From the NCBI GenBank assembly GCA_038873195.1, contig JAVZEV010000001.1, forward strand, positions 1,206,490 through 1,270,489: DNA of 64,000 nt, written 5' to 3'. The position numbers and the translations under genes are program-made. Positions 20,088-37,285 of the stretch are shown here, piece by piece (positions within the stretch are counted from its first letter, which is position 1; every line of letters starts with the position of its first letter). This DNA comes from Candidatus Bathyarchaeia archaeon (GTDB taxonomy: Archaea; Thermoproteota; Bathyarchaeia; Bathyarchaeales; Bathycorpusculaceae). The notes below the pieces were generated by a model, which worked only from the letters and a program-made list of their open reading frames with translations, was not told where the DNA came from and made no database searches.

Positions 20088-20633
20088 CTAACTTTTTAAC
20101 AAATCTTTCCCGTATTCGTAGCCTTTTTCAAAAGCAGTTAAATTAAGCTCTTCAGTGCCTTTTGGTATGTTTGCTTTAATTGACTCTTTTAACGCGTCTC
20201 TATCCAGCAACTCCGTGATAGCTGCAAAAGCGCCCAGCATCACTATGTTAGCAACTATTTTCCTTCCCAACTCTTCAGCAATTTTCGTGGCTGGAACACG
20301 ATAAACTTTAACATTTTTCAATTCCTTTTCATGCGGAATCATGTCAGGGTCCATAATTATCACTCCACCGGATTTCACGTCTTCCGCATATTCGTTGTAG
20401 GCGTGTTGAGACATCACAACAAGCACGTCTGGCTCGGTGACTTTTGGAAAGTCTATGTCCTCTTCTGATATCACCACTTCTGATTTGCACGCGCCGCCTC
20501 TTGATTCTGGACCATAAGATTGTGTTTGAACTGCATTTTTTCCACTGTGAATCGCGGCTGCAGCAGCCGTGATTATTCCAGACTTGATTATTCCTTGTCC
20601 TCCAAATCCTGCAAACCGAATTTCTTTTCGCAT
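20088..20633 (-). CDS. korC: 2-oxoacid:ferredoxin oxidoreductase, gamma subunit
   Basis: 181 residues of the gamma domain of 2-oxoacid:ferredoxin oxidoreductases: FAGFGGQGIIKSGIITAAAAA at the start, SYGPESRGGACKSEVVIS, and VMLGAFAAITELLDRDAL. The first glycine-rich loop and the ESRGG motif are hallmarks. It is the last gene of a six-gene operon (fusion genes, then korD, A, B, C). The D-A-B-C order is that of 2-oxoglutarate oxidoreductases in methanogens and Archaeoglobus, which favours 2-oxoglutarate, but substrate cannot be proved from sequence. Confidence 0.92.
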   Translation of the reverse strand: MRKEIRFAGFGGQGIIKSGIITAAAAAIHSGKNAVQTQSYGPESRGGACKSEVVISEEDIDFPKVTEPDVLVVMSQHAYNEYAEDVKSGGVIIMDPDMIPHEKELKNVKVYRVPATKIAEELGRKIVANIVMLGAFAAITELLDRDALKESIKANIPKGTEELNLTAFEKGYEYGKDLLKS

Positions 20634-20636
20634 TTT

Positions 20637-21476
20637 TCACCATCCCATTGCTTTCTCGTTAATCTGAGCTATCTTCTCATGGAGCAGTCTTTCATAACTA
20701 ATCTTTTCTGTGTTAACAAACTCGCCCACGACTATTTTTTCGGGAGAAATTTCTGCTTTAGACGGGTCGGAGAAATTTTCAACCACAGAAGCTCTTCTAA
20801 ACCATTCCATCATTTCCAAACCCGTTCGCATCTTGTTGCGTCTGCCGAAAATCTCTGGGCAAGGCGAGACGACTTCTAAGAAGCAGAAACCTTCTTTCTG
20901 CAACATCCGCTTTATCGACTGCGTCAACCTTCGCACATGCAAGGTCGTCCATCTAGCCACGTAAGTCGCGCCGGACGCTGCAGCTAAGTGGACTAGGTTA
21001 AATGGATGTTCAATGTTGCCGTAAGGGGTTGTAGTTGTTGATGCTTCGAGAGGAGTCGTGGGACCTTGTTGTCCGCCGGTCATTCCATAGTTAAAGTTGT
21101 TTGCGCAAATCACCTTTATTCCTATGTTTCGCCGTGCAGCATGAATGAAATGGTTTCCACCGATGGCGAAGAGGTCGCCGTCGCCGCTTATAACAACAAC
21201 TTCCAACTCTGGATTTGCCAATTTTACTCCAGTTGCGAAGGCTATTGCGCGTCCATGCGTCGTGTGGAAAGAATCAGCATTCGTGTAGCCTGCCGTGCGT
21301 CCAATGCAGCCAATGCCAGACACAACCACCAGTTTATCCAAATCCTTCTGTAACTCATCCAACGCGTGAACAAAACAGTTCAGCACAATACCGTTGCCGC
21401 ATCCGGGACACCAAATATGCGGCATCATCGCCGAACGCAAATACTTCGCAAAAGGATGCACTACTTCCTGAACCAT
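20637..21476 (-). CDS. korB: 2-oxoacid:ferredoxin oxidoreductase, beta (TPP) subunit
   Basis: 279 residues. The thiamine diphosphate fold is shown by WCPGCGNGIVL (near residue 22), GDGDLFAIGGNHFIHAARRN and the conserved NNFNYGMTGGQQGPTT. The Cys-Pro-Gly-Cys-Gly pair ligates the [4Fe-4S] cluster. The ATG at 21476 overlaps the korA stop codon by one base (TAATG), so translation is coupled; an earlier in-frame start at 21485 is possible. It pairs with KorA to form the catalytic core. Confidence 0.94.
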   Translation of the reverse strand: MVQEVVHPFAKYLRSAMMPHIWCPGCGNGIVLNCFVHALDELQKDLDKLVVVSGIGCIGRTAGYTNADSFHTTHGRAIAFATGVKLANPELEVVVISGDGDLFAIGGNHFIHAARRNIGIKVICANNFNYGMTGGQQGPTTPLEASTTTTPYGNIEHPFNLVHLAAASGATYVARWTTLHVRRLTQSIKRMLQKEGFCFLEVVSPCPEIFGRRNKMRTGLEMMEWFRRASVVENFSDPSKAEISPEKIVVGEFVNTEKISYERLLHEKIAQINEKAMGW

Positions 21477-22627
21477 TAAGAACACCTCCTTACCATGTCA
21501 AGAATCTCCTGCGGAGTATGCGGCTCCTCGCCTAATTTGGAAAGAAAAGAGACGGGAGTTTCTTTCGCTGCTCTCTCCACTTCGCGAACAATTTGCCCAC
21601 AATTCATTTCAGGAACAACAATAGCCTTCGCTTGTCCAGCAATTCTTGCAACATGTTTTTCCGGGAAAGGCCACAGTGTGATTAACCGTAACATTCCAGC
21701 TTTGATTCCGGCTTCTCTTGCTCTTCTAACTGCGCTTAAGGCGGCTCTGGCTACGATTCCGTAAGCTACAACTACGATATCTGCGTCTTCAAGCATGACC
21801 TCTTCAACGTTTATTATCTTATCCGCATTCTTGTTTATCTTTTCACAAAGCCGCCTAACAAGCCTCGTTTGAACTTCAGAGTTTTGTGTTCGAGGATAAC
21901 CACGCTCATCATGCGTTAAACCTGTTGCGTGAAACCGATAGCCTTCTCCAAAACAAGCCATGGGCGGAACCAAATCATCTTCGGGCATGAAAGGCGCGTA
22001 TTCGCTTGGTGAAACATGAGGCTTTTTGCGGTTAACTATCCTAATCTCTGAAGCGGGAGGTATGACGACTTTTTCCCACATGTGCGCAACAATCTCATCA
22101 CCCATCAACAACGTTGGAACACGATAAGTTTCAGCCAAATTAAACGCTTCAACCGTTAAGTTGAACATTTCCTGCACAGAAGAAGGCGCTAAAGCTATGA
22201 TGCCATAATCGCCATGAGAACCCCACTTGGCTTGCATAACATCCTGCTGTCCCGGCAGCGTGGGCTGCCCAGTGCTTGGTCCGCCTCGCATGATGTCAAC
22301 AATAACGCATGGAGTCTCAGTCATAACAGCTAAACCTATATTCTCTTGCATGAGGCTAAAGCCTGGTCCAGAAGTCGCCGTCATAGCTTTCAATCCCGCG
22401 TAGGAAGCGCCCAGAACAGCCGCGATAGACGCTATTTCATCCTCCATTTGAATGTAGATTCCGCCAAATTCAGGCATTCGCTCCGACAAGTGCTCAGCAA
22501 TTTCAGTTGCGGGCGTGATTGGGTAACCAGCAAAAAATCTGCAACCAGCAGCAATCGCGCCTTCCGCACATGCAATGTCGCCGCTCATGAAATGCGCGCC
22601 GGTTGGCAAAGTTCTTTTTCCAGTCAT
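21476..22627 (-). CDS. korA: 2-oxoacid:ferredoxin oxidoreductase, alpha subunit
   Basis: 383 residues carrying the pyrimidine-binding and transketolase-C-like domains: GAIAAGCRFFAGYPITPATEIAE (with the YPITP motif typical of the Kor/For family), MTATSGPGFSLM, GGPSTGQPTLPGQQD and, near the C-terminus, RLITLWPFPEK. GPSTG(Q/M)PT is the family hallmark. The start overlaps the korD stop by 4 bases (ATGA). It binds 2-oxoacid together with KorB. Confidence 0.95.
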   Translation of the reverse strand: MTGKRTLPTGAHFMSGDIACAEGAIAAGCRFFAGYPITPATEIAEHLSERMPEFGGIYIQMEDEIASIAAVLGASYAGLKAMTATSGPGFSLMQENIGLAVMTETPCVIVDIMRGGPSTGQPTLPGQQDVMQAKWGSHGDYGIIALAPSSVQEMFNLTVEAFNLAETYRVPTLLMGDEIVAHMWEKVVIPPASEIRIVNRKKPHVSPSEYAPFMPEDDLVPPMACFGEGYRFHATGLTHDERGYPRTQNSEVQTRLVRRLCEKINKNADKIINVEEVMLEDADIVVVAYGIVARAALSAVRRAREAGIKAGMLRLITLWPFPEKHVARIAGQAKAIVVPEMNCGQIVREVERAAKETPVSFLSKLGEEPHTPQEILDMVRRCS

Positions 22628-22908
22628 TTTTTAACATCCTCCTTACATGATTTTTCAGTAACGAAAATTGCAAAGTCTGGACAAACTGCAGTGCAAAAAC
22701 TGCATATAATACATTTGCTTTCGTCAATAATCTTCGGAGGGTGAACGCCCCGCGCGTTTATCTCTTGAGATTCCTCTAAAACTTTTTTTGGACAGAATTG
22801 AATGCAGAAACCGCAGCCTTTGCATTGGTCTTTAATCAAGTGAATCTGCGCTTGAGGCGGCTTCACTTTCTCCTTGTCAAGGGGCTGATGCTTGATTCTT
22901 TCTGGCAT
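22624..22908 (-). CDS. korD: 2-oxoacid:ferredoxin oxidoreductase, delta (2x[4Fe-4S]) subunit
   Basis: 94-residue ferredoxin-type subunit with two classical cluster motifs, CKGCGFCIQFCP (residues 29-40) and CIICSFCTAVCP (residues 67-78). The second motif has Ile where Gly is more usual. It moves electrons from the TPP core of Kor to ferredoxin or to a partner. It starts 2 bases after the HdrA-MvhD fusion ends, placing the electron outlet of Kor directly beside the Hdr-type genes. Confidence 0.93.
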   Translation of the reverse strand: MPERIKHQPLDKEKVKPPQAQIHLIKDQCKGCGFCIQFCPKKVLEESQEINARGVHPPKIIDESKCIICSFCTAVCPDFAIFVTEKSCKEDVKK

Positions 22909-22910
22909 GA

Positions 22911-25349
22911 TTAGTTTCCTCCTAAAGCCTTTTCGAAAACCCTTTTGGATTTTTCTATCTCTTCGCGCGTAACTTTCTCAACTATTTCTTGCATTTCGCG
23001 AATTTTAGAGGCAAAACGTTCACCTTCCGCCGCCGAAGCCCACAACAACTGCAACCGCTCCTTGTCTAATCCGTTTTGCTCCATTTTTTTCGTGAGCCTT
23101 TCCACACGTTTCTGTGTGTGATAATTCGCATTTATGTAGTGGCAATCGCCCGGGTGGCAGCCAGCTACTAACACTGCTGCGGCGCCTCTTGCAAATGCTC
23201 TTTCAACAAACTTCGGCGACACACGTCCAGAACACATCGTTCGAATTATGCGCACGTTCGGCGGATACTGCATTCTACTTACGCCGGCGAAGTCTGCACC
23301 CGCATAAGCGCACCAGTTGCAACAGAAAGCTACAATTTTCTTATCCGCATCCTGCTCAGTAACAGCGTCTACTTGCGCAAGAATCTGCTCGTCAGTAAAG
23401 TGGTTCTGAGTCAAAGCGCCAAAGGGGCATTCAGCAGCGCATGTTCCGCATCCGCCACACGCAGCCTCTACAATATTCACCCGCTTTAACTCCTTATCAA
23501 GCGTTATAGCGTTGTATGGACAAACTTTCGTGCACAAACCGCATGCCTTACACTTTTCCGCAATAGAAATCGGCGTTATGGCTTCAACCGTCACTTTTCC
23601 CTTAGCCATTAATATGCCGGCTCTGGCTGCAGCGGCGCTTGCCTGTGTCACACTATCCTTGATATCCTTGGGCGCTTCGGCGCAACCAGCAAAGAAAATT
23701 CCTCCAGTAGCCGCGTCCACTGGTCTAAGTTTCGGATGCGCTTCCATGAAAAAGCCATCTTGCGTCCGAGAAAGCGTCAATAGCCGCTGTATCATTTCAC
23801 TGTCTTTTCTAGGCTCTAAGCCTATGGAGAGAATGACCATGTCAAAATTCATTCTGTAAAGTTCCTTTTGCAGAGTGTTTTCTCCGACAAGCCACAAGTT
23901 GCGTGTTCTCTTGTCTTCTAATATTTCTGATGGGAGCCCGCGAATGAACTTGACGCCTTCCCTTCGAGCGCGTTTGTAAAGGTCTTCGAAGCCTTTTCCG
24001 TAAGCGCGTATGTCAACGTAGAAAACGTAGATTTCGGTTTCTGGCCAATGTTCTTTGATTAGTAGGCTGTCTTTTATTGTGTTCATGCAGCAGACGTTGC
24101 TGCAGTAGAGTCTGCCGTTTCTGTCTGAGCGGGAACCTACACATTGAACAAACGCCACGCGTTTTGGAATTTGCTTGTCGCTTGGTCTTATTAAATGCCC
24201 GTGGGATGGACCGCCAGCGTTAATTAGTCTTTCAAATTCGAGTGATGTTATAACGTTTGGGTATTTGCCGTATCCGTAATGCGGAAGTGTTGACGGGTCG
24301 AAAACATCCGCGCCCGTAGCCACGATTATTGTGCCTACTTCCAGTTCGACAGTTTCTGGTTTCATTTCGAATTTTATGGCTTGCCTTTCGCATGCTTTCA
24401 TGCATTTGTCGCAGACTATTACGCCGTCTTTGTTTAGGCATAGGTTCATGTCGATTATGTATGTGGATGGAACTGCTTGCGCGAAAGGCGTGTAGATGGC
24501 ATGTCTTATTGCTAAGCCGACATCAAACTCGTTTGGAGCGACTACTGGACAAACTTTTGCGCATTCGCCGCAGGCTGAACAATCCTTTGTGACATATCGC
24601 GGCTTTTTCAGAACTTTTACGCGGAAATTGCCAATGTAACCTTTGACTTCAGTTACTTCGCTGTTTGTTAACAATTCAATGTTTGGGTGATGTCCAACAT
24701 CTGACATTTTAGGTGCGAGAATGCATATAGAACAATCCATCGTTGGAAACGTCTTGTCAATGCGAGCCATCATGCCGCCTATGCTTGGTTCTTTCTCAAC
24801 CAGATACACTTGATAACCCGTGTCTGCAAGGTCTAGTGAGGCTTGAATGCCGGCGACGCCGCCGCCGATGACTAGTGCTTTACGGATGATTGGCACTTCG
24901 ATTTCTTCTGCTGGCTGAAGCAAAGCTGCTTTGGCTACTGCCATTTTTACGAGGTCCTTCGCTTTTTCTGTTGCTGCTTTGCGGTCGTGTAGGTGAACCC
25001 AACTGCAATGTTCGCGGATGTTAGCCATTTCAAAAAGGTACTTGTTCAAGCCCGCTTCTTCGCATGCTTTTCTAAATGTTGGTTCGTGAAGGCGTGGTGA
25101 GCATGAAGCAACGACTACGCGGTTGAGTTTGTGTTCTTTGATGTCGGTTTTTATTTGTTCTTGTCCTTGGTCTGAACATGTGTATCGGTTGTCTTTGGCT
25201 AGAACAACGTGGGGAAGGGTTGCGGCGAACTTTGCAACTTCTTCACAGTCCACGGAGCCCGCGATGTTTAAACCGCAGTGGCAAACATAAACTCCGATGC
25301 GAACGTCTCCGCCGCTTTCTTTAGGTGTTTGTGTCTTATTTTCTGCCAC
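22911..25349 (-). CDS. hdrA: HdrA fused to MvhD (FAD / Fe-S electron-transfer subunit)
   Basis: 812 residues. Residues 1-140: HdrA N-terminal domain (GVYVCHCGLNIAGSV). About 157-600: FAD domain (VIGGGVAGIQASL at 160-172) with inserted cluster motif CSACGECAKVCP (257-268) and a second Cys group near 304-320. About 590-660: two [4Fe-4S] ferredoxin motifs, CKACGLCTKVCP and CGGCGTCAAECP. From about 665 to the end: an MvhD/FrhD-like [2Fe-2S] domain with FCCNWCAYAGAD, TMCSGRV and GCHPGDCHY. HdrA is the flavin-bifurcating subunit of heterodisulfide reductase complexes; MvhD normally links it to a hydrogenase or formate dehydrogenase. Here no HdrB, hydrogenase or formate dehydrogenase gene is adjacent. 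Confidence 0.92.
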   Translation of the reverse strand: MAENKTQTPKESGGDVRIGVYVCHCGLNIAGSVDCEEVAKFAATLPHVVLAKDNRYTCSDQGQEQIKTDIKEHKLNRVVVASCSPRLHEPTFRKACEEAGLNKYLFEMANIREHCSWVHLHDRKAATEKAKDLVKMAVAKAALLQPAEEIEVPIIRKALVIGGGVAGIQASLDLADTGYQVYLVEKEPSIGGMMARIDKTFPTMDCSICILAPKMSDVGHHPNIELLTNSEVTEVKGYIGNFRVKVLKKPRYVTKDCSACGECAKVCPVVAPNEFDVGLAIRHAIYTPFAQAVPSTYIIDMNLCLNKDGVIVCDKCMKACERQAIKFEMKPETVELEVGTIIVATGADVFDPSTLPHYGYGKYPNVITSLEFERLINAGGPSHGHLIRPSDKQIPKRVAFVQCVGSRSDRNGRLYCSNVCCMNTIKDSLLIKEHWPETEIYVFYVDIRAYGKGFEDLYKRARREGVKFIRGLPSEILEDKRTRNLWLVGENTLQKELYRMNFDMVILSIGLEPRKDSEMIQRLLTLSRTQDGFFMEAHPKLRPVDAATGGIFFAGCAEAPKDIKDSVTQASAAAARAGILMAKGKVTVEAITPISIAEKCKACGLCTKVCPYNAITLDKELKRVNIVEAACGGCGTCAAECPFGALTQNHFTDEQILAQVDAVTEQDADKKIVAFCCNWCAYAGADFAGVSRMQYPPNVRIIRTMCSGRVSPKFVERAFARGAAAVLVAGCHPGDCHYINANYHTQKRVERLTKKMEQNGLDKERLQLLWASAAEGERFASKIREMQEIVEKVTREEIEKSKRVFEKALGGN

Positions 25350-25353
25350 TTTC

Positions 25354-26790
25354 TCATCCTCCAGAAGACTTCAAGTAGTCTTCAATTGATTCAGCGGCTC
25401 GTTTTCCAGCGCATATCGCTTCTATGACACTCGCTGGTCCAGTTACCACATCTCCACCCGCGAAAACACCGTGCATAGTAGTTTCCATAGTTATGGGGTC
25501 AGTCCAAACAGTGCCGTCTTCATTTAGCTCAACTTCATTTGGCAAAAACGCAAGGTCTGGGGCTTCCCCAATCGCAAGAATAACCATGTCTGTTTGCCGC
25601 GTAAATTCTGAACCTTCGATTGGAACTGGTCTTCTTCTTCCAGTATCATCTGTCTCGCCTAACTGCATGCGAACACATTCAACCGCCGAGACCTTTCCAT
25701 TTTCTCCCAAAATCCTCTTGGGCGCAACCAAAAATTCGATTTTGACGCCTTCGTTTTCTGCCTCTTTAACTTCCCACGGGTTGGCGGGCATTTCATCCAT
25801 TGACCGACGATATAATATGGTCACGTTATCTGCTCCAAGCTGCAGCGCAGTTCTTGCAGCGTCTACCGCGACATTTCCGCCGCCAACCACAACAACATTC
25901 TTTCCAACATCTATTTTCTCGCCGAAATTAACCTTCCATAAAAAGTCAAGCGCATGTATGACTCTCTTTAATTCTCCTCCTTCAATTCTCATCTTTTGGC
26001 TTTTATGGGCGCCAACACCGATGAATACAGCTTTGTATCCTTCCTTCCCCAATTCGTCCAAACCTAAATCCTTGCCAATTTGAACACCAGTTTTTATCTC
26101 CACGCCCAAATCTTTCAAAAACTGAGTTTCCTTCGCTAAAACATGTTTTGGCAAGCGATATTCTGGGATACATTTCCGCAACATTCCACCTGCTTCGGGA
26201 AGAGCTTCAAAAACTGTGACTTTATGCCCTTTTCGGGCTAGTTCATATGCGACCGTGAGTCCGGCGGGTCCTGAGCCTATGACCGCAATTTTTTCCCCTG
26301 AAACTTTTGTTGCTTTCTTCTTTTTGCCCTTCTTTAAAAGTTCTTTACGTTTTTGCTCGATTCTTTCTAAGACTTTATCCTTATCCAGTCCTGCGCGTTC
26401 TGGATGAAAACAAACTAGGGTTGTCACAAGTGGTAAGGGAATATTTTCTATTATTTTTTCGAGTGCTTCTTCAAAAGGCTGTGTGTATCCATGTTTCGCG
26501 GCAATTGCTCGAAAGAAAAGAAGTATTTCAGGTATTCGCAAGGCTTGAGGGCAACGTTTATGGCAGTTGTAGCACCAAGCGCAAAGCCAGAGTTCATCAG
26601 AAGCTAAAACGCTTTCGGGGTCCAAGTAAATTTTTTCCAGAAGCCCACGCGGATTATAATCATTCCCTAATAGTTCTGCCATGGAACAGCTTGCCATGCA
26701 AATACCACATTCGAAGCAGTATTTGAGCCGTTCAATGTCCAAGATTTTTCTTATATCCTCTTTGGAGATTACTGGTTTCGCGGACTCCAA
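25354..26790 (-). CDS. HdrC-like Fe-S domain fused to GltD/NfnB-like NAD(P)H:FAD oxidoreductase
   Basis: 478 residues. Residues 1-130 hold HdrC-type cluster motifs, CFECGICMASCSMAELLGNDYNPRG and CAWCYNCHKRCP. From about 165 the protein is a GltD/NfnB-type flavoprotein: AVIGSGPAGLTVAYELARKGHKV (FAD), then VVVVGGGNVAVDAARTALQLG (NAD(P)H), and a C-terminal VFAGGDVVTGPASVIEAICAGKRAA. The start is a TTG at 26790 with GAGAGGG about 10 bases ahead. It is the first gene of the hdr-kor operon. It would accept or deliver NAD(P)H electrons and pass them through Fe-S clusters to HdrA. No GltB large subunit is nearby, so glutamate synthase is unlikely. Confidence 0.9.
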   Translation of the reverse strand: MESAKPVISKEDIRKILDIERLKYCFECGICMASCSMAELLGNDYNPRGLLEKIYLDPESVLASDELWLCAWCYNCHKRCPQALRIPEILLFFRAIAAKHGYTQPFEEALEKIIENIPLPLVTTLVCFHPERAGLDKDKVLERIEQKRKELLKKGKKKKATKVSGEKIAVIGSGPAGLTVAYELARKGHKVTVFEALPEAGGMLRKCIPEYRLPKHVLAKETQFLKDLGVEIKTGVQIGKDLGLDELGKEGYKAVFIGVGAHKSQKMRIEGGELKRVIHALDFLWKVNFGEKIDVGKNVVVVGGGNVAVDAARTALQLGADNVTILYRRSMDEMPANPWEVKEAENEGVKIEFLVAPKRILGENGKVSAVECVRMQLGETDDTGRRRPVPIEGSEFTRQTDMVILAIGEAPDLAFLPNEVELNEDGTVWTDPITMETTMHGVFAGGDVVTGPASVIEAICAGKRAAESIEDYLKSSGG

Positions 26791-26942: not shown

Positions 26943-27971
26943 ATGAAACAGATAAGAGTTGCATTGTATGGTGTCGGCGCCGTCGGCAGCCTAATCGCCA
27001 AATTTCTACTAGAAAAGGAAGGAATCGAAATAGTAGGCGCAGTTGACGTAGCCAAAGACAAGGTAGGCAAGGATTTAGGCGCCGTTTTAGGCTTAGGAAG
27101 AAACCTAGGAATAACCATTTCAGATAACGTAGACGCTACACTTTCAAAGGCAAAAGCAGACATCGCCATCCACGCAACCTCATCCTATCTCAAGGACACT
27201 TATCCACAAATTGCTTCAATAGTTAAAAACGGCGTAAACGTCATATCCACATGCGAAGAACTATCCTACCCAAGCTTTTCTGAACCCACCCTCGCAGAGA
27301 AACTTGACGCGCTAGCAAAAAAACACGACGTTACAGTACTAGGCACAGGCATAAACCCCGGTTTCCTCATGGACACTTTAGTGATAACGCTTACGGCAGT
27401 ATGCCAAAAAATAAACAAAATCGAAGCAGTCAGAGTCATGAACGCCGGCACAAGACGACTACCATTCCAAAAGAAAGTCGGCGCAGGCTTAACGGTTGAA
27501 GAATTCAAACAGAAAATCGAGAGCAAACAAATCACTGGGCATGTTGGACTTGAACAATCCATCGCTATGATTGCTGACGCTTTAGCTTGGAAACTTGACA
27601 AAATAAAGGCTGAACCAGTCGAACCGGTAATCGCTAAGAAACCCGTGGAAAGTAGAGACATAAAAGTTGATGCGGGAAAGGTTGCGGGTTTAAAACAGAA
27701 GGCAAAAGGCACAATGAATGGAAAAGAGGTTATAACTCTTGATTTTCAAGCGTACATAGGCGCCGAAGAAGAATACGACGCCATAACAATTGAAGGCACT
27801 CCAGCAGTCAAGCAAAAAATTCAGCCGTGCGTGCATGGCGACGTAGGCACTGTGGCAATGATTGTTAACTCAATCCCAAAAGTAATCAACGCACCTGCCG
27901 GTTTACTCATAATGAAAGATTTGCCAGTTCCGTCCGCTGCCGTGGAAGATATACGCAAATACGTAAAATAA
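26943..27971 (+). CDS. DapB-like NAD(P)-dependent dehydrogenase (2,4-diaminopentanoate dehydrogenase-like, COG3804)
   Basis: 342 residues. N-terminal Rossmann fold (VALYGVGAVGSLIAKFLLEK) related to dihydrodipicolinate reductase, then VISTCEELSYP and GTGINPGFLMDTLVI, sequences typical of the COG3804 group that includes 2,4-diaminopentanoate dehydrogenase of ornithine fermentation. It is not a standard DapB, being longer with a different C-terminal half. Substrate is unknown. A ribosome site, GGAAGGA, lies before the ATG. A TATA-like ttttatag is at about 26893. moaE follows 9 bases later on the same strand. Confidence 0.72.
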   Translation: MKQIRVALYGVGAVGSLIAKFLLEKEGIEIVGAVDVAKDKVGKDLGAVLGLGRNLGITISDNVDATLSKAKADIAIHATSSYLKDTYPQIASIVKNGVNVISTCEELSYPSFSEPTLAEKLDALAKKHDVTVLGTGINPGFLMDTLVITLTAVCQKINKIEAVRVMNAGTRRLPFQKKVGAGLTVEEFKQKIESKQITGHVGLEQSIAMIADALAWKLDKIKAEPVEPVIAKKPVESRDIKVDAGKVAGLKQKAKGTMNGKEVITLDFQAYIGAEEEYDAITIEGTPAVKQKIQPCVHGDVGTVAMIVNSIPKVINAPAGLLIMKDLPVPSAAVEDIRKYVK

Positions 27972-35314: not shown

Positions 35315-37285
35315 TCAAGGGATGAGCGAATATGTTGCTAAAGATGCTGCATATAACAATGCAATTATTCCAATCAAGTTTATGAACACATCTAATGACG
35401 GACCCGCTGCGTCCTTTAGCGAATCGCCAACTGTGTCTCCGATAACTGCTGCTGTGTGTGCGGGTGTTCCTTTGCCGCCGAGATTGCCTGCTTCGATGAA
35501 TTTTTTGGCGTTGTCCCATGCTGCGCCGCCAATAGACATGAAAATGGCGAGAGGAAGCATTGTTACGAGGTTTCCGACTATTAAGCCGCCCATTGCTTCT
35601 TTGCCCAGCAAAAGTCCTATCATTAGAGGAATCGCCACAGACAGTAATGCTGGAAGTAGCATGCCTCTTAGCGCTGCTTTTGTGCTGATGTCTATGCATC
35701 TGGCGTAGTTGGGCTTAGCTTCTCCATTAGCTAATCCAAAGTTTTCACTGAATTGCTTGCGCACTTCTCTAATCATGCTGTAAGCCGCGTTTCCAACTGC
35801 CTTAATTATTAATGAACAGAACACGAAGGATAACATTCCGCCTATTAGCATTCCAGTTATCACAGAAGGCTTCATCACATCTATTGTTTGAAGTTGCGCT
35901 GCTTTAATGTAAGCTGAGAATAAAGCAATTTGGGCTAATGCTGATGTGCCTATGGCGTAGACTTTGCAAACCGCTTTAGTTACGTTACCAACAGAATCCA
36001 GCGCATCCACAACTTTATGTTCTTCTTGGCTTGAGTTTGTCATTTCAATCATGCCGTGGGCGTTGTCTACGATTGGTCCATAAGAAGACATGGCGATGAA
36101 CGTGGCTGTTATAGACAGAAAACCAACCGCCACCAAAGCTATGCCATACAAACCTTCAAAATAATAGGCAATCATCACTGCCGCAGAAAAGACCACGATT
36201 GGAAAAGTTATACTTTCAAAACTTAAAGAAAGCCCCATCAAAATATTAGTGGCTGGACCGGTTTTTGAAGCTCTCGCTATGGCTTTTACAGGCGATTTAC
36301 TTGGTGAAGTGTAGCGTTCAGTCAGCCACGCAAGCAAAACAACTGCTACGACTCCAGTGATTGTGGCATAAAAAGCGCTGAACCTGTTAAAAATTGTCCA
36401 TGCTGCAAAGGCTGAGGCAATGCTGACTAAAACGGCTGCCACGTACATGCCCTTGTCCATGGCTTGTCTTGCGTCTCCACTCTTTGTTCTAATAAAAAGC
36501 GACCCCACCATTGACGCGAAAATTCCTGCTCCCAGAACTATCAAGGGATAGATTAAGCCTTCATTTCCGTAGACTGTTATGCCGAGAATCATGGTAGCAA
36601 CTAGTGTACATACGTAAGATTGGAAAACGTCTGTGCCAGTGCCAGCGATGTCTCCTACGTTGTCTCCTACTTGGTCTGCGATGACTGCGGGGTTTCGAGC
36701 ATCGTCTTCTGGGAAACCCATTTCCACTTTACCCGCTAAGTCAGCGCCCATATCAGCTGCTTTTGTGTATATTCCTCCACCCACTCTTGCGAATAAGCCG
36801 ATGAGGCTGGCGCCGAATCCTAAACCAACGAGGAGTATTGGGTCGCCAAGCAAGAAGTAAAGGGCGCTAACTCCAAGTAAGCCTAACCCGGTGAGAGAAA
36901 GTCCGACGATGGTGCCGCTGTGTGAAGCGGTTTCAAGGGCTTCTTTGAAGCCGTGTTTGGCTGCGTCGGCTGTTTTAACGTTAGCGCGAATGGCGATTAT
37001 GACGCCTATGTATGCTGAAAGTGCGGAAAAGAACGCGCCGACGGCGAATGTTAGGGCGACGAAAACGCCAAAAGCTAAAGAGATGAGTGCTGTCAAAACT
37101 GCGCCGACAACAGCAACGGTTTTGAATTGACGGTTAAGATAAGCAGTAGCGCCTATTTTGATTGTGTTAGAAATCTCAACCATGCTTGATGTGCCGTTGG
37201 GTTTCTTTAGCATGCGGTAGGCTCTGTAAATGGCAAAGATTACCGCTGAAAGCCCGGCAACTGGGGCTATCAATGTAAGATTCAA
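35315..37285 (-). CDS. hppA: Membrane-bound proton-translocating pyrophosphatase
   Basis: 656-residue M-PPase with about 15-16 hydrophobic helices. It couples PPi hydrolysis to ion pumping. The catalytic stretch is ADMGADLAGKVEMGFPEDDARNPAVIADQVGDNVGD, and the second Asp cluster is in GDTVGDSLKDAAGPSLD. At the position that separates the K+-dependent (Ala) and K+-independent (Lys) groups, it reads GNVTKAVCK, that is Lys, so it should be a K+-independent H+ pump. TTG start at 37285, with an AAGGAG site about 12 bases upstream. Confidence 0.95.
   Translation of the reverse strand: MNLTLIAPVAGLSAVIFAIYRAYRMLKKPNGTSSMVEISNTIKIGATAYLNRQFKTVAVVGAVLTALISLAFGVFVALTFAVGAFFSALSAYIGVIIAIRANVKTADAAKHGFKEALETASHSGTIVGLSLTGLGLLGVSALYFLLGDPILLVGLGFGASLIGLFARVGGGIYTKAADMGADLAGKVEMGFPEDDARNPAVIADQVGDNVGDIAGTGTDVFQSYVCTLVATMILGITVYGNEGLIYPLIVLGAGIFASMVGSLFIRTKSGDARQAMDKGMYVAAVLVSIASAFAAWTIFNRFSAFYATITGVVAVVLLAWLTERYTSPSKSPVKAIARASKTGPATNILMGLSLSFESITFPIVVFSAAVMIAYYFEGLYGIALVAVGFLSITATFIAMSSYGPIVDNAHGMIEMTNSSQEEHKVVDALDSVGNVTKAVCKVYAIGTSALAQIALFSAYIKAAQLQTIDVMKPSVITGMLIGGMLSFVFCSLIIKAVGNAAYSMIREVRKQFSENFGLANGEAKPNYARCIDISTKAALRGMLLPALLSVAIPLMIGLLLGKEAMGGLIVGNLVTMLPLAIFMSIGGAAWDNAKKFIEAGNLGGKGTPAHTAAVIGDTVGDSLKDAAGPSLDVFINLIGIIALLYAASLATYSLIP

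Follow-up and report, generated by a model that had tools for sequence, protein, structure and literature searches.

The locus described here raises the question of what an HdrA flavoprotein may do when it is encoded together with a four-subunit 2-oxoacid:ferredoxin oxidoreductase (Kor) in an operon that contains no gene for HdrB. It lies in a stretch of 64,000 nucleotides from a Candidatus Bathyarchaeia archaeon (assembly GCA_038873195.1, contig JAVZEV010000001.1, forward-strand positions 1,206,490 to 1,270,489), which is called the window throughout, and consists of six minus-strand genes, running from 26790 to 20088, for an HdrC-GltD fusion, an HdrA-MvhD fusion and the subunits KorD, KorA, KorB and KorC. 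Our tentative answer, held with slightly less than even confidence, is that this cassette encodes an HdrA-wired 2-oxoglutarate synthase: one cytoplasmic complex, probably run in the reductive direction and possibly bifurcating. The parts of this proposal differ in strength: we consider it likely that Kor is electronically coupled to HdrA and fairly probable that 2-oxoglutarate is synthesised reductively, and true bifurcation appears evenly balanced. The physical complex, 2-oxoglutarate as the substrate, the reductive direction, bifurcation and H2 as the partner are all features that we infer.

Gene content of the cassette

An earlier, sequence-only note on this DNA (the original prediction) had described six genes on one strand with gaps of 4 bases or less, or overlaps; the open reading frames (ORFs) are located as it said, with intergenic spacings of 4, 2, -4, -10 and 3 bases. 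Its identification of a GltD-like/HdrC fusion, an HdrA/MvhD fusion and KorD, A, B and C agrees with the Pfam and NCBIfam profile searches by which the domains of the six proteins were assigned.

The HdrA-MvhD protein matches the HdrA2 model NF040770 with 1291.8 bits (cut-off 1100), and its residues 16-663 align to HdrA of Methanothermococcus (PDB 5odc_A) with E 3e-257. K409 and E356 of HdrA have been proposed as markers of bifurcating HdrA (PMC12054007); their counterparts, K426 and E373 (Table 1), are invariant in an alignment of 35 HdrA proteins, 32 Kor-linked and three Kor-less. Each cysteine of the window HdrA is kept in 35/35 of these, except C35 and C556 (34/35), both of which lie outside the CxxC motifs. 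Internal stops in HdrA of loci L069, L119, L127 and L129 and in KorB of L121 were dismissed as alignment-end overruns, all being situated in the final residues; in L069, L119 and L127 such overruns also account for strongly negative spacings between HdrA and KorD. Compared with a bifurcating complex of the HdrABC type, the cassette has an HdrA with FAD domain, the cysteines of the clusters and the K409/E356 pair, together with a two-cluster HdrC, and it lacks the HdrB of such a complex, no Pfam match to the HdrB CCG domain PF02754 being found in any of its six proteins.

In the fusion protein, Pfam and NCBIfam recognise a Fer4_8/HdrC-like N-terminus and Pyr_redox_2/GltD. Residues 1-120 gave five HdrC matches among PDB sequences (E 1e-16 to 3e-11) and three others above 1e-3, and the eight cysteines of the two-cluster HdrC are invariant in 44/44 fusion sequences. 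Fer4_20 (PF14691), the native Fe-S domain of GltD, is absent among the Pfam matches of the fusion and was found by Pfam in three GltD-type comparison proteins. With a structural model of residues 1-120 (predicted local distance difference test, pLDDT, 83.2), HdrC chains ranked top at Z 9.8-11.7, followed at lower ranks by carbon monoxide dehydrogenase (CODH; Z 7.2-8.0), SdhB-type chains and NfnL (5.8-6.0); these scores are modest considering that the domain is helical, and alpha-helical ferredoxin domains of other kinds (CODH, SdhB) reach 6-8; the identity of the N-terminus as HdrC therefore rests mainly on sequence. The model of the full fusion (pLDDT 88.7; predicted template modelling score, pTM, 0.89) superposes over residues 25-476 on NfnL/Nfn-ABC chains with Z ~32 and a root-mean-square deviation of 3.0-3.5 in the first four matches. 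Taken alone, this whole-model search would hint at a plain native GltD Fe-S domain at the N-terminus; this identity was rejected, as both the sequence and the model of residues 1-120 favour HdrC. In the predicted structure HdrC takes the position of the clusters that belong to NfnL itself; so placed, the HdrC clusters would be able to hand electrons to the GltD FAD.

The GltD domain carries a GxGxxG motif for FAD at 172-177 and a nucleotide motif GxGxxA at 303-308, followed by R328 and R329; GxGxxA is present in 44/44 fusion sequences and each of the two arginines in 42/44. According to PMC12054007, GxGxxA is of the NADP type and GxGxxG of the NAD type. It is supported that an NADP(H)-type module stands in for HdrB in the cassette.

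The domain set of a four-subunit Kor (alpha, beta, gamma, delta) is complete. KorA exceeds the cut-off of NF006412 (591 bits against 411) and has PDB matches 1yd7, 8ys5 and 6n2n, and KorC exceeds that of NF006323 (257 against 235); the best NCBIfam match of KorB is to NF007207 (2-oxoglutarate oxidoreductase beta) with 270 bits, under the cut-off of 364, and KorD matches NF042987 (OGOR_delta) with 67 bits, under that of 125. C26, C29, C60 and C209 of KorB are invariant in 29/29 sequences and the eight motif cysteines of KorD in 31/31. The models for Pad subunits scored far under their cut-offs (NF045764, 82 bits against 700; NF045766, 45 against 700; NF045762, 65 against 300).

Conservation of the six genes in relatives

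Full-length orthologues of the fusion were searched for in 162 genomes of the order at E <= 1e-140 and in a phylum-level sample of 398 genomes at E <= 1e-130. At these thresholds, with which more diverged copies could be missed, they occupy 44 loci in 41 of the 162 genomes. The comparison of gene order that the original prediction had called for supports one conserved unit: the complete set in the same order and on the same strand is found at 28 of the 44 loci (the window and 27 others, with ~51-98% protein identity), seven more match the order as far as the contig end, and nine differ. Such a recurrence at 27 further loci argues that the six-gene arrangement is not due to chance. All 13 matches of the phylum sample fall within the same order, and a contig scan with a single query sequence returned two distant loci only.

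In the HdrA tree, the 32 Kor-linked rows lie on one side of a branch with support 100/98 and the three Kor-less rows on the other. Rows of families f1, f5 and f6 cluster by family, and those of f4 are scattered at the base, the outgroup row being very long. This fits an old cassette inherited as a block, mostly vertically.

At L131, L132, L135 and L137 the fusion is accompanied by a close HdrA (~71-76% where intact; that of L131 is interrupted by a run of N) without Kor. The gene after HdrA in L132 encodes a polyferredoxin with 24 Cys, for which FwdF/FmdF chains of formylmethanofuran dehydrogenase are the best matches in the PDB; similar Cys-rich ORFs occupy that slot in L135 and L137 by ORF reading only, and L131 shows none. 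The fusion stands alone on its own strand at L126 and L130, with Cys-rich ORFs on the opposite strand and, in L126, the beginning of an HdrA there at the contig end, and at L133, L136 and L138 it is found ahead of HdrA sets in two parts that include MvhD, or of portions of such sets, which makes them another type of partner for the fusion. From this gene content, HdrC-GltD plus HdrA looks like a core with a variable third slot.

Citrate synthase and the direction of Kor

No PF00285 match to citrate synthase was found in the cassette genome, the Re-type enzyme not having been searched for. As a control, the same search detected citrate synthase in 13 of 14 genomes, all but that of M. jannaschii, an organism that makes 2-oxoglutarate reductively. 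A full-length citrate synthase is encoded in 29 of the 162 genomes; nine more with partial matches only (eight C-terminal in frames of 614-644 aa, one of 31 residues) were excluded from the 29, and none of them is a Kor-cassette genome. PF00285 matches occur in 0/32 Kor-cassette genomes and, in full length, in 29/130 others (Fisher one-sided p 8e-4, genomes treated as independent). At the genus level there is no overlap between the 24 Kor genera and the nine citrate-synthase genera of 68 (p 0.014), and among genomes at least 90% complete the counts are 0/20 with the Kor cassette and 20/68 without (p 0.003). All four genomes in which fusion and HdrA2 are present with no Kor at the same locus (G170, G171, G193, G196) have citrate synthase. 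G154, G155, G181 and G248, where the contig or locus showed no Kor, were not counted as Kor-positive, and none has a PF00285 match.

In none of the 162 genomes was this Kor form seen alongside citrate synthase, which points to a reductive synthesis of 2-oxoglutarate; the TfrA/TfrB-like fumarate reductase pair of the genome (Tfr models matched under cut-off) speaks for the same direction. We regard the citrate-synthase data as moderate evidence for reductive carboxylation to 2-oxoglutarate by the cassette Kor. The idea of one unit joining Kor, HdrA-MvhD and HdrC-GltD, with an NADP(H) module and no heterodisulfide subunit, can be retained from the original prediction, and its emphasis on 2-oxoacid oxidation is given up on account of these data.

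Proposed reaction and energetics

In the proposed synthase, electrons would branch at the FAD of HdrA into a low-potential arm, formed by the ferredoxin domains of HdrA, and a second arm, formed by HdrC, an assignment derived by homology from the HdrABC-MvhAGD architecture (PMC5861303). Low-potential electrons would pass from HdrA directly to the two [4Fe-4S] clusters of KorD and on to Kor, and KorABCD would carboxylate succinyl-CoA to 2-oxoglutarate; the HdrC domain would take the other stream, from the HdrA FAD to the GltD flavin and NADP+, with NADP(H) replacing HdrB and the heterodisulfide. The MvhD domain would be a third, entry port for a partner encoded outside the operon. The best-supported candidate would be H2 via one of the MvhAG-like hydrogenases of the genome, which is known to carry hydrogenase genes, no search having been made for a formate dehydrogenase. 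The net reaction would be 2 H2 + NADP+ + succinyl-CoA + CO2 -> NADPH + 2-oxoglutarate + CoA, reversible, with the reverse (confurcating) reaction equally built in, and both NADPH and 2-oxoglutarate would feed glutamate synthesis. That H2 electrons, delivered by MvhAG docked on the MvhD domain, are split at HdrA in this manner, one stream fixing CO2 on Kor without free ferredoxin and the other making NADPH via HdrC-GltD, seems to us possible and on the whole rather doubtful.

HdrA and subunit F of formylmethanofuran dehydrogenase share one PDB entry in 7bkb and 9sw6, and Fwd binds Hdr through this subunit, bifurcation then reaching a sufficiently low potential for the formation of formyl-methanofuran (PMC11656701). 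By analogy, Kor may be the CO2-fixing enzyme attached to HdrA here, and the FwdF-like polyferredoxin in the Kor slot of L132 supports such a direct wiring of Kor to HdrA.

The potential of NADP is -320 mV and that of the 2-oxoglutarate couple -490 mV. Together with those of H2 (-414), F420 (-360) and formate (-430 mV; PMC5861303), standard potentials gave a computed ~-3.5 kJ/mol for NADP+ reduction plus 2-oxoglutarate synthesis with 2 H2 and -9.6 with 2 formate. F420H2 as the donor with NADP+ as the acceptor was rejected at +17.4 kJ/mol, also at standard potentials.

2-Oxoglutarate synthase normally needs strongly reduced ferredoxin. If the proposal is true, a building block would be made with electrons otherwise too weak, and bifurcation fed by H2 or formate, with the remaining electrons kept as NADPH, would unite carbon fixation with redox balance and nitrogen assimilation, a single enzyme supplying both inputs of glutamate synthesis as an archaeal replacement of the citrate-synthase route. 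Furthermore, a second CO2-fixing enzyme, beside formylmethanofuran dehydrogenase, would be wired directly to HdrA, an archaeal HdrA core would work with NADP(H) instead of HdrB and a disulfide, and a modular HdrA-GltD core would take either Kor or a FwdF-like polyferredoxin in its third slot.

Counter-evidence and alternative explanations

Several observations weigh against the proposed synthase. The NCBIfam models specific for 2-oxoglutarate (NF007206, NF007207, NF042987) were all matched under their cut-offs, and five other 2-oxoacid oxidoreductases are encoded in the genome, of which the KorABC-like set L100 could be the actual 2-oxoglutarate synthase. The cassette is without a hydrogenase gene, and H2 provides little driving force towards NADP+, with none remaining when H2 is low. 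The citrate-synthase contrast takes genomes as independent and ignores kinship; of the 130 genomes in which no Kor cassette was seen, 92 lack any PF00285 match, including two that carry the fusion, G167 (with another HdrA set and without Kor) and G181 (where the contig is cut and Kor was not seen), so that the lack of citrate synthase does not require the cassette. Moreover, Kor-less HdrA rows of two families group together in the tree, which suggests transfer, and two independent losses of Kor were rejected for this reason.

The same complex might be run oxidatively, with Kor oxidising 2-oxoacids derived from amino acids and HdrA either confurcating with NADPH towards F420 or, via MvhAG, protons as the mid-potential acceptor, or splitting the electrons to ferredoxin and NADP+. 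Kor reactions are reversible, the divergent neighbour of the cassette at 20 of 43 other loci is a gene resembling an amino-acid (2,4-diaminopentanoate) dehydrogenase, and the six 2-oxoacid oxidoreductases of the genome include Por- and Ior-like sets, all of which would suit this direction. However, citrate synthase is absent and is never found with this Kor form, which favours reductive use, and NADP+ oxidising a couple near -0.49 V needs no bifurcation; we consider oxidative operation unlikely. A step further down in probability, and distinctly unlikely, is that the operon encodes two enzymes, HdrA2 and HdrC-GltD forming a free-standing, Nfn-like ferredoxin:NADPH bifurcator and Kor drawing on the free ferredoxin pool. 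The occurrence of fusion and HdrA2 without Kor at L131, L132, L135 and L137 and of the fusion with quite different HdrA sets at L133, L136 and L138 speaks for such a separation, as does KorD being an ordinary delta subunit, whereas the gene order shared by 28 of 44 loci, where genes overlap or almost touch, the split of Kor-linked from Kor-less HdrA in the tree and the presence in the L132 slot of a FwdF-like polyferredoxin, a known Hdr-docking type, argue for one unit. HdrA might also be a mere wire between Kor and the GltD flavin in a non-bifurcating, NADP-linked 2-oxoacid oxidoreductase resembling phenylglyoxylate:NAD+ oxidoreductase PadEFGHI, and HdrA-free examples of GltD fused to or lying beside subunits of 2-oxoacid:ferredoxin oxidoreductases (OFORs) do exist (L074). 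Yet these HdrA-free versions already do the job of NAD(P) linkage, and a wire would not need the bifurcation-linked residues, HdrA motif cysteines and MvhD domain that are invariant here, which leaves this explanation very improbable.

The absence of HdrB, which the original prediction had stressed, holds for the operon and not for the genome (1.63 Mb, 98% complete), where CCG-domain genes occur at four places. Two HdrB-like genes (~300 aa) lie in clusters at C1:621-631 kb and 634-641 kb with hdrC, hdrA and NiFe-hydrogenase genes; hydrogenase large subunits are present in both clusters, and mvhG genes were recognised by ORF reading only. An HdrB-free organism was thereby ruled out, and the search for hdrB and mvhA/G that had been recommended led to hdrB- and mvhAG-like genes located elsewhere, beside hdrA and hdrC of their own. 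HdrB could then be supplied in trans, with a disulfide still the high-potential acceptor: HdrB-like CCG genes are available at C1:624 kb and 635 kb, CCG proteins were found in 18/18 cassette genomes tested (18 of 32), and the computed energetics are far better with a disulfide acceptor at -0.14 V, for which PMC11656701 reports a re-evaluation to -0.28 V. Each HdrB gene, however, adjoins its own HdrC- and HdrA-like gene, and in the cassette it is GltD, through its fusion to HdrC, that fills the place of HdrB; we find supply in trans scarcely credible. The co-occurrence of an hdrB gene elsewhere, which had been put forward as a refutation of the complex, yielded no contrast, and it cannot discriminate because the CCG family is broad and the HdrB-like genes have their own HdrA and HdrC.

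Relation to known systems

HdrA clustered with a four-subunit 2-oxoglutarate:ferredoxin oxidoreductase (OGOR) is published for tubeworm symbionts (gammaproteobacteria) and Thioflavicoccus, in the form of FlxABCD-HdrABC with korABCD interspersed, together with the proposal of a direct, bifurcation-driven electron delivery to OGOR (PMC6315080, PMC11636981). These clusters are bacterial and keep HdrBC, FlxABCD (NADH) and genes of the reductive tricarboxylic acid cycle, and the accessible portions of these reports mention no HdrC-GltD; the cassette, in contrast, has no HdrB and no Flx, carries an NADP-type GltD-HdrC fusion and is a block fixed across the cassette-bearing families of the order. Neither FlxABCD nor HdrBC was found beside Kor by Pfam/NCBIfam among the six cassette and four searched flanking proteins. 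Should the proposed synthase be real, its compact six-gene system would make the tubeworm-symbiont Kor-Hdr proposal testable.

The HdrA-MvhD fusion is shared with HdrA2B2C2 and type Ia HdrA (PMC5296606, PMC12054007); as far as these accounts describe it, HdrA2B2C2 has HdrB2C2 where the cassette has HdrC-GltD, and the cassette adds Kor as a dedicated partner. In the Hdr-Fwd/Fmd supercomplex (7bkb, 9sw6; PMC11656701), HdrA feeds low-potential electrons to an enzyme bound to it that fixes CO2; in the cassette this enzyme would be Kor, with docking through KorD instead of polyferredoxin F and NADP+ instead of the heterodisulfide. GltD provides an NAD(P)H port also to the Hdr complex of type III HdrA, where according to PMC12054007 it forms an insertion within HdrA, carries the NAD-type GxGxxG and occurs with mvhADG in Bathyarchaeota, whereas GltD of the cassette is on HdrC and has GxGxxA. 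A Beggiatoaceae hdr gene with an NAD(P)H subunit has been named hdrF (PMC4914600).

The NfnSL, Nfn-ABC and Stn transhydrogenases have in common with the cassette a GltD/NfnL-type FAD-NADP(H) subunit, superposable at Z ~30-32, but the cassette differs in its HdrC-like domain with no Fer4_20 match and in having no NfnS/NuoF partner in the operon. PadEFGHI, made up of OFOR subunits and a GltD-like flavoprotein giving the NAD(P) linkage, and GltD-fused OFORs such as L074 show the same pairing of OFOR and GltD-like protein as the cassette; unlike it, they have no HdrA and no MvhD, with Fer4_20 instead of HdrC (seen in L074). It should be added that L074 (6876-11221), from bacterium SM23_31, encodes a 751-aa POR gamma-Fer4_20-GltD-Fer4 fusion beside POR alpha and beta, a set which by its domains is probably an HdrA-free, NAD(P)-linked 2-oxoacid oxidoreductase.

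Our literature search, judging mostly by titles and abstract openings, returned no account of a set of HdrC-GltD, HdrA-MvhD and Kor. The exact gene set may be new, and the suggestion of the original prediction to this effect was a fair one, as the published gammaproteobacterial Kor-Hdr clusters, so far as described, have HdrBC and FlxABCD; Kor-Hdr clusters and modular HdrA complexes as such are already published.

Genomic context and other redox genes

Table 1. Positions in the window of the cassette genes, their domains and residues, and the divergent neighbour
Feature	Position	Strand	Remarks
HdrC-GltD fusion protein	25354..26790	-	478 aa, TTG start
HdrC domain, ~residues 18-104	26479..26739	-	two CxxCxxCxxxC motifs: C25/28/31/35 and C70/73/76/80
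GltD/NfnL-like FAD and NAD(P) domain, ~residues 162-476	25363..26307	-	GltD-type; Pfam, PDB
HdrA2-type HdrA-MvhD	22911..25349	-	812 aa, GTG start
E373, equivalent of HdrA E356	24231..24233	-	counted on 5odc_A alignment; 35/35 invariant
K426, equivalent of HdrA K409 (flavin N5 lysine)	24072..24074	-	counted on 5odc_A alignment; 35/35 invariant
MvhD/FlpD domain, residues 672-792	22974..23336	-	PF02662, E 3e-51; 5odc_D match
KorD, 2x[4Fe-4S] ferredoxin-like delta subunit	22624..22908	-	94 aa
KorA (alpha)	21476..22627	-	383 aa; POR_N/PFOR_II
KorB (beta, thiamine pyrophosphate)	20637..21485	-	282 aa; PF02775
KorC (gamma)	20088..20633	-	181 aa; POR gamma
2,4-Diaminopentanoate dehydrogenase-like gene	26943-27971	+	NF040740, 357 bits, under cut-off 400

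On one flank the cassette is bordered by genes for an archaeal S3Ae ribosomal protein and SerS, and on the other by the 2,4-diaminopentanoate dehydrogenase-like gene and MoaE. The 20 other loci with this dehydrogenase-like neighbour include five loci of family f5 without detected S3Ae/SerS, and a functional tie to amino-acid metabolism is possible.

The genome has six 2-oxoacid oxidoreductase gamma subunits, belonging to the cassette, two Por-like sets, IorAB, the KorABC-like L100 and an archaeal type with two subunits, L101; the identification of the Por- and Ior-like sets comes from ORF listings. L100 has no delta subunit among its listed neighbours, and its alpha subunit is 56% identical to the cassette KorA. 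Two FrhB-type proteins are also encoded.

The hdrB-bearing cluster at G000:C1:621.7-631.4 kb (L017/L018) reads GltD(Fer4_20, 587 aa)-MvhD-HdrA(1009 aa)-MvhD-HdrC-HdrB-MvhG-MvhA, an Hdr set of the NAD(P)H/H2 type. Close to the Hdr clusters, at C1:611.8-615.1 kb (L017:5822-9100), lies the TfrA/TfrB-like fumarate reductase pair, whose TfrB carries a CCG domain, the Tfr models being matched under cut-off. A paralogue of HdrA-MvhD, ~55% identical, adjoins a FwdF-like polyferredoxin at G000:C1:481.3-484.7 kb (L071:8328-11713), with no GltD or Kor within the 19-kb stretch covered there.

Elsewhere in the window, Kae1 and archaeal RecJ are encoded, confirming an archaeal chromosome, and a membrane-bound ion-translocating pyrophosphatase (NF001960, over cut-off) is located at 35315-37285 on the minus strand.

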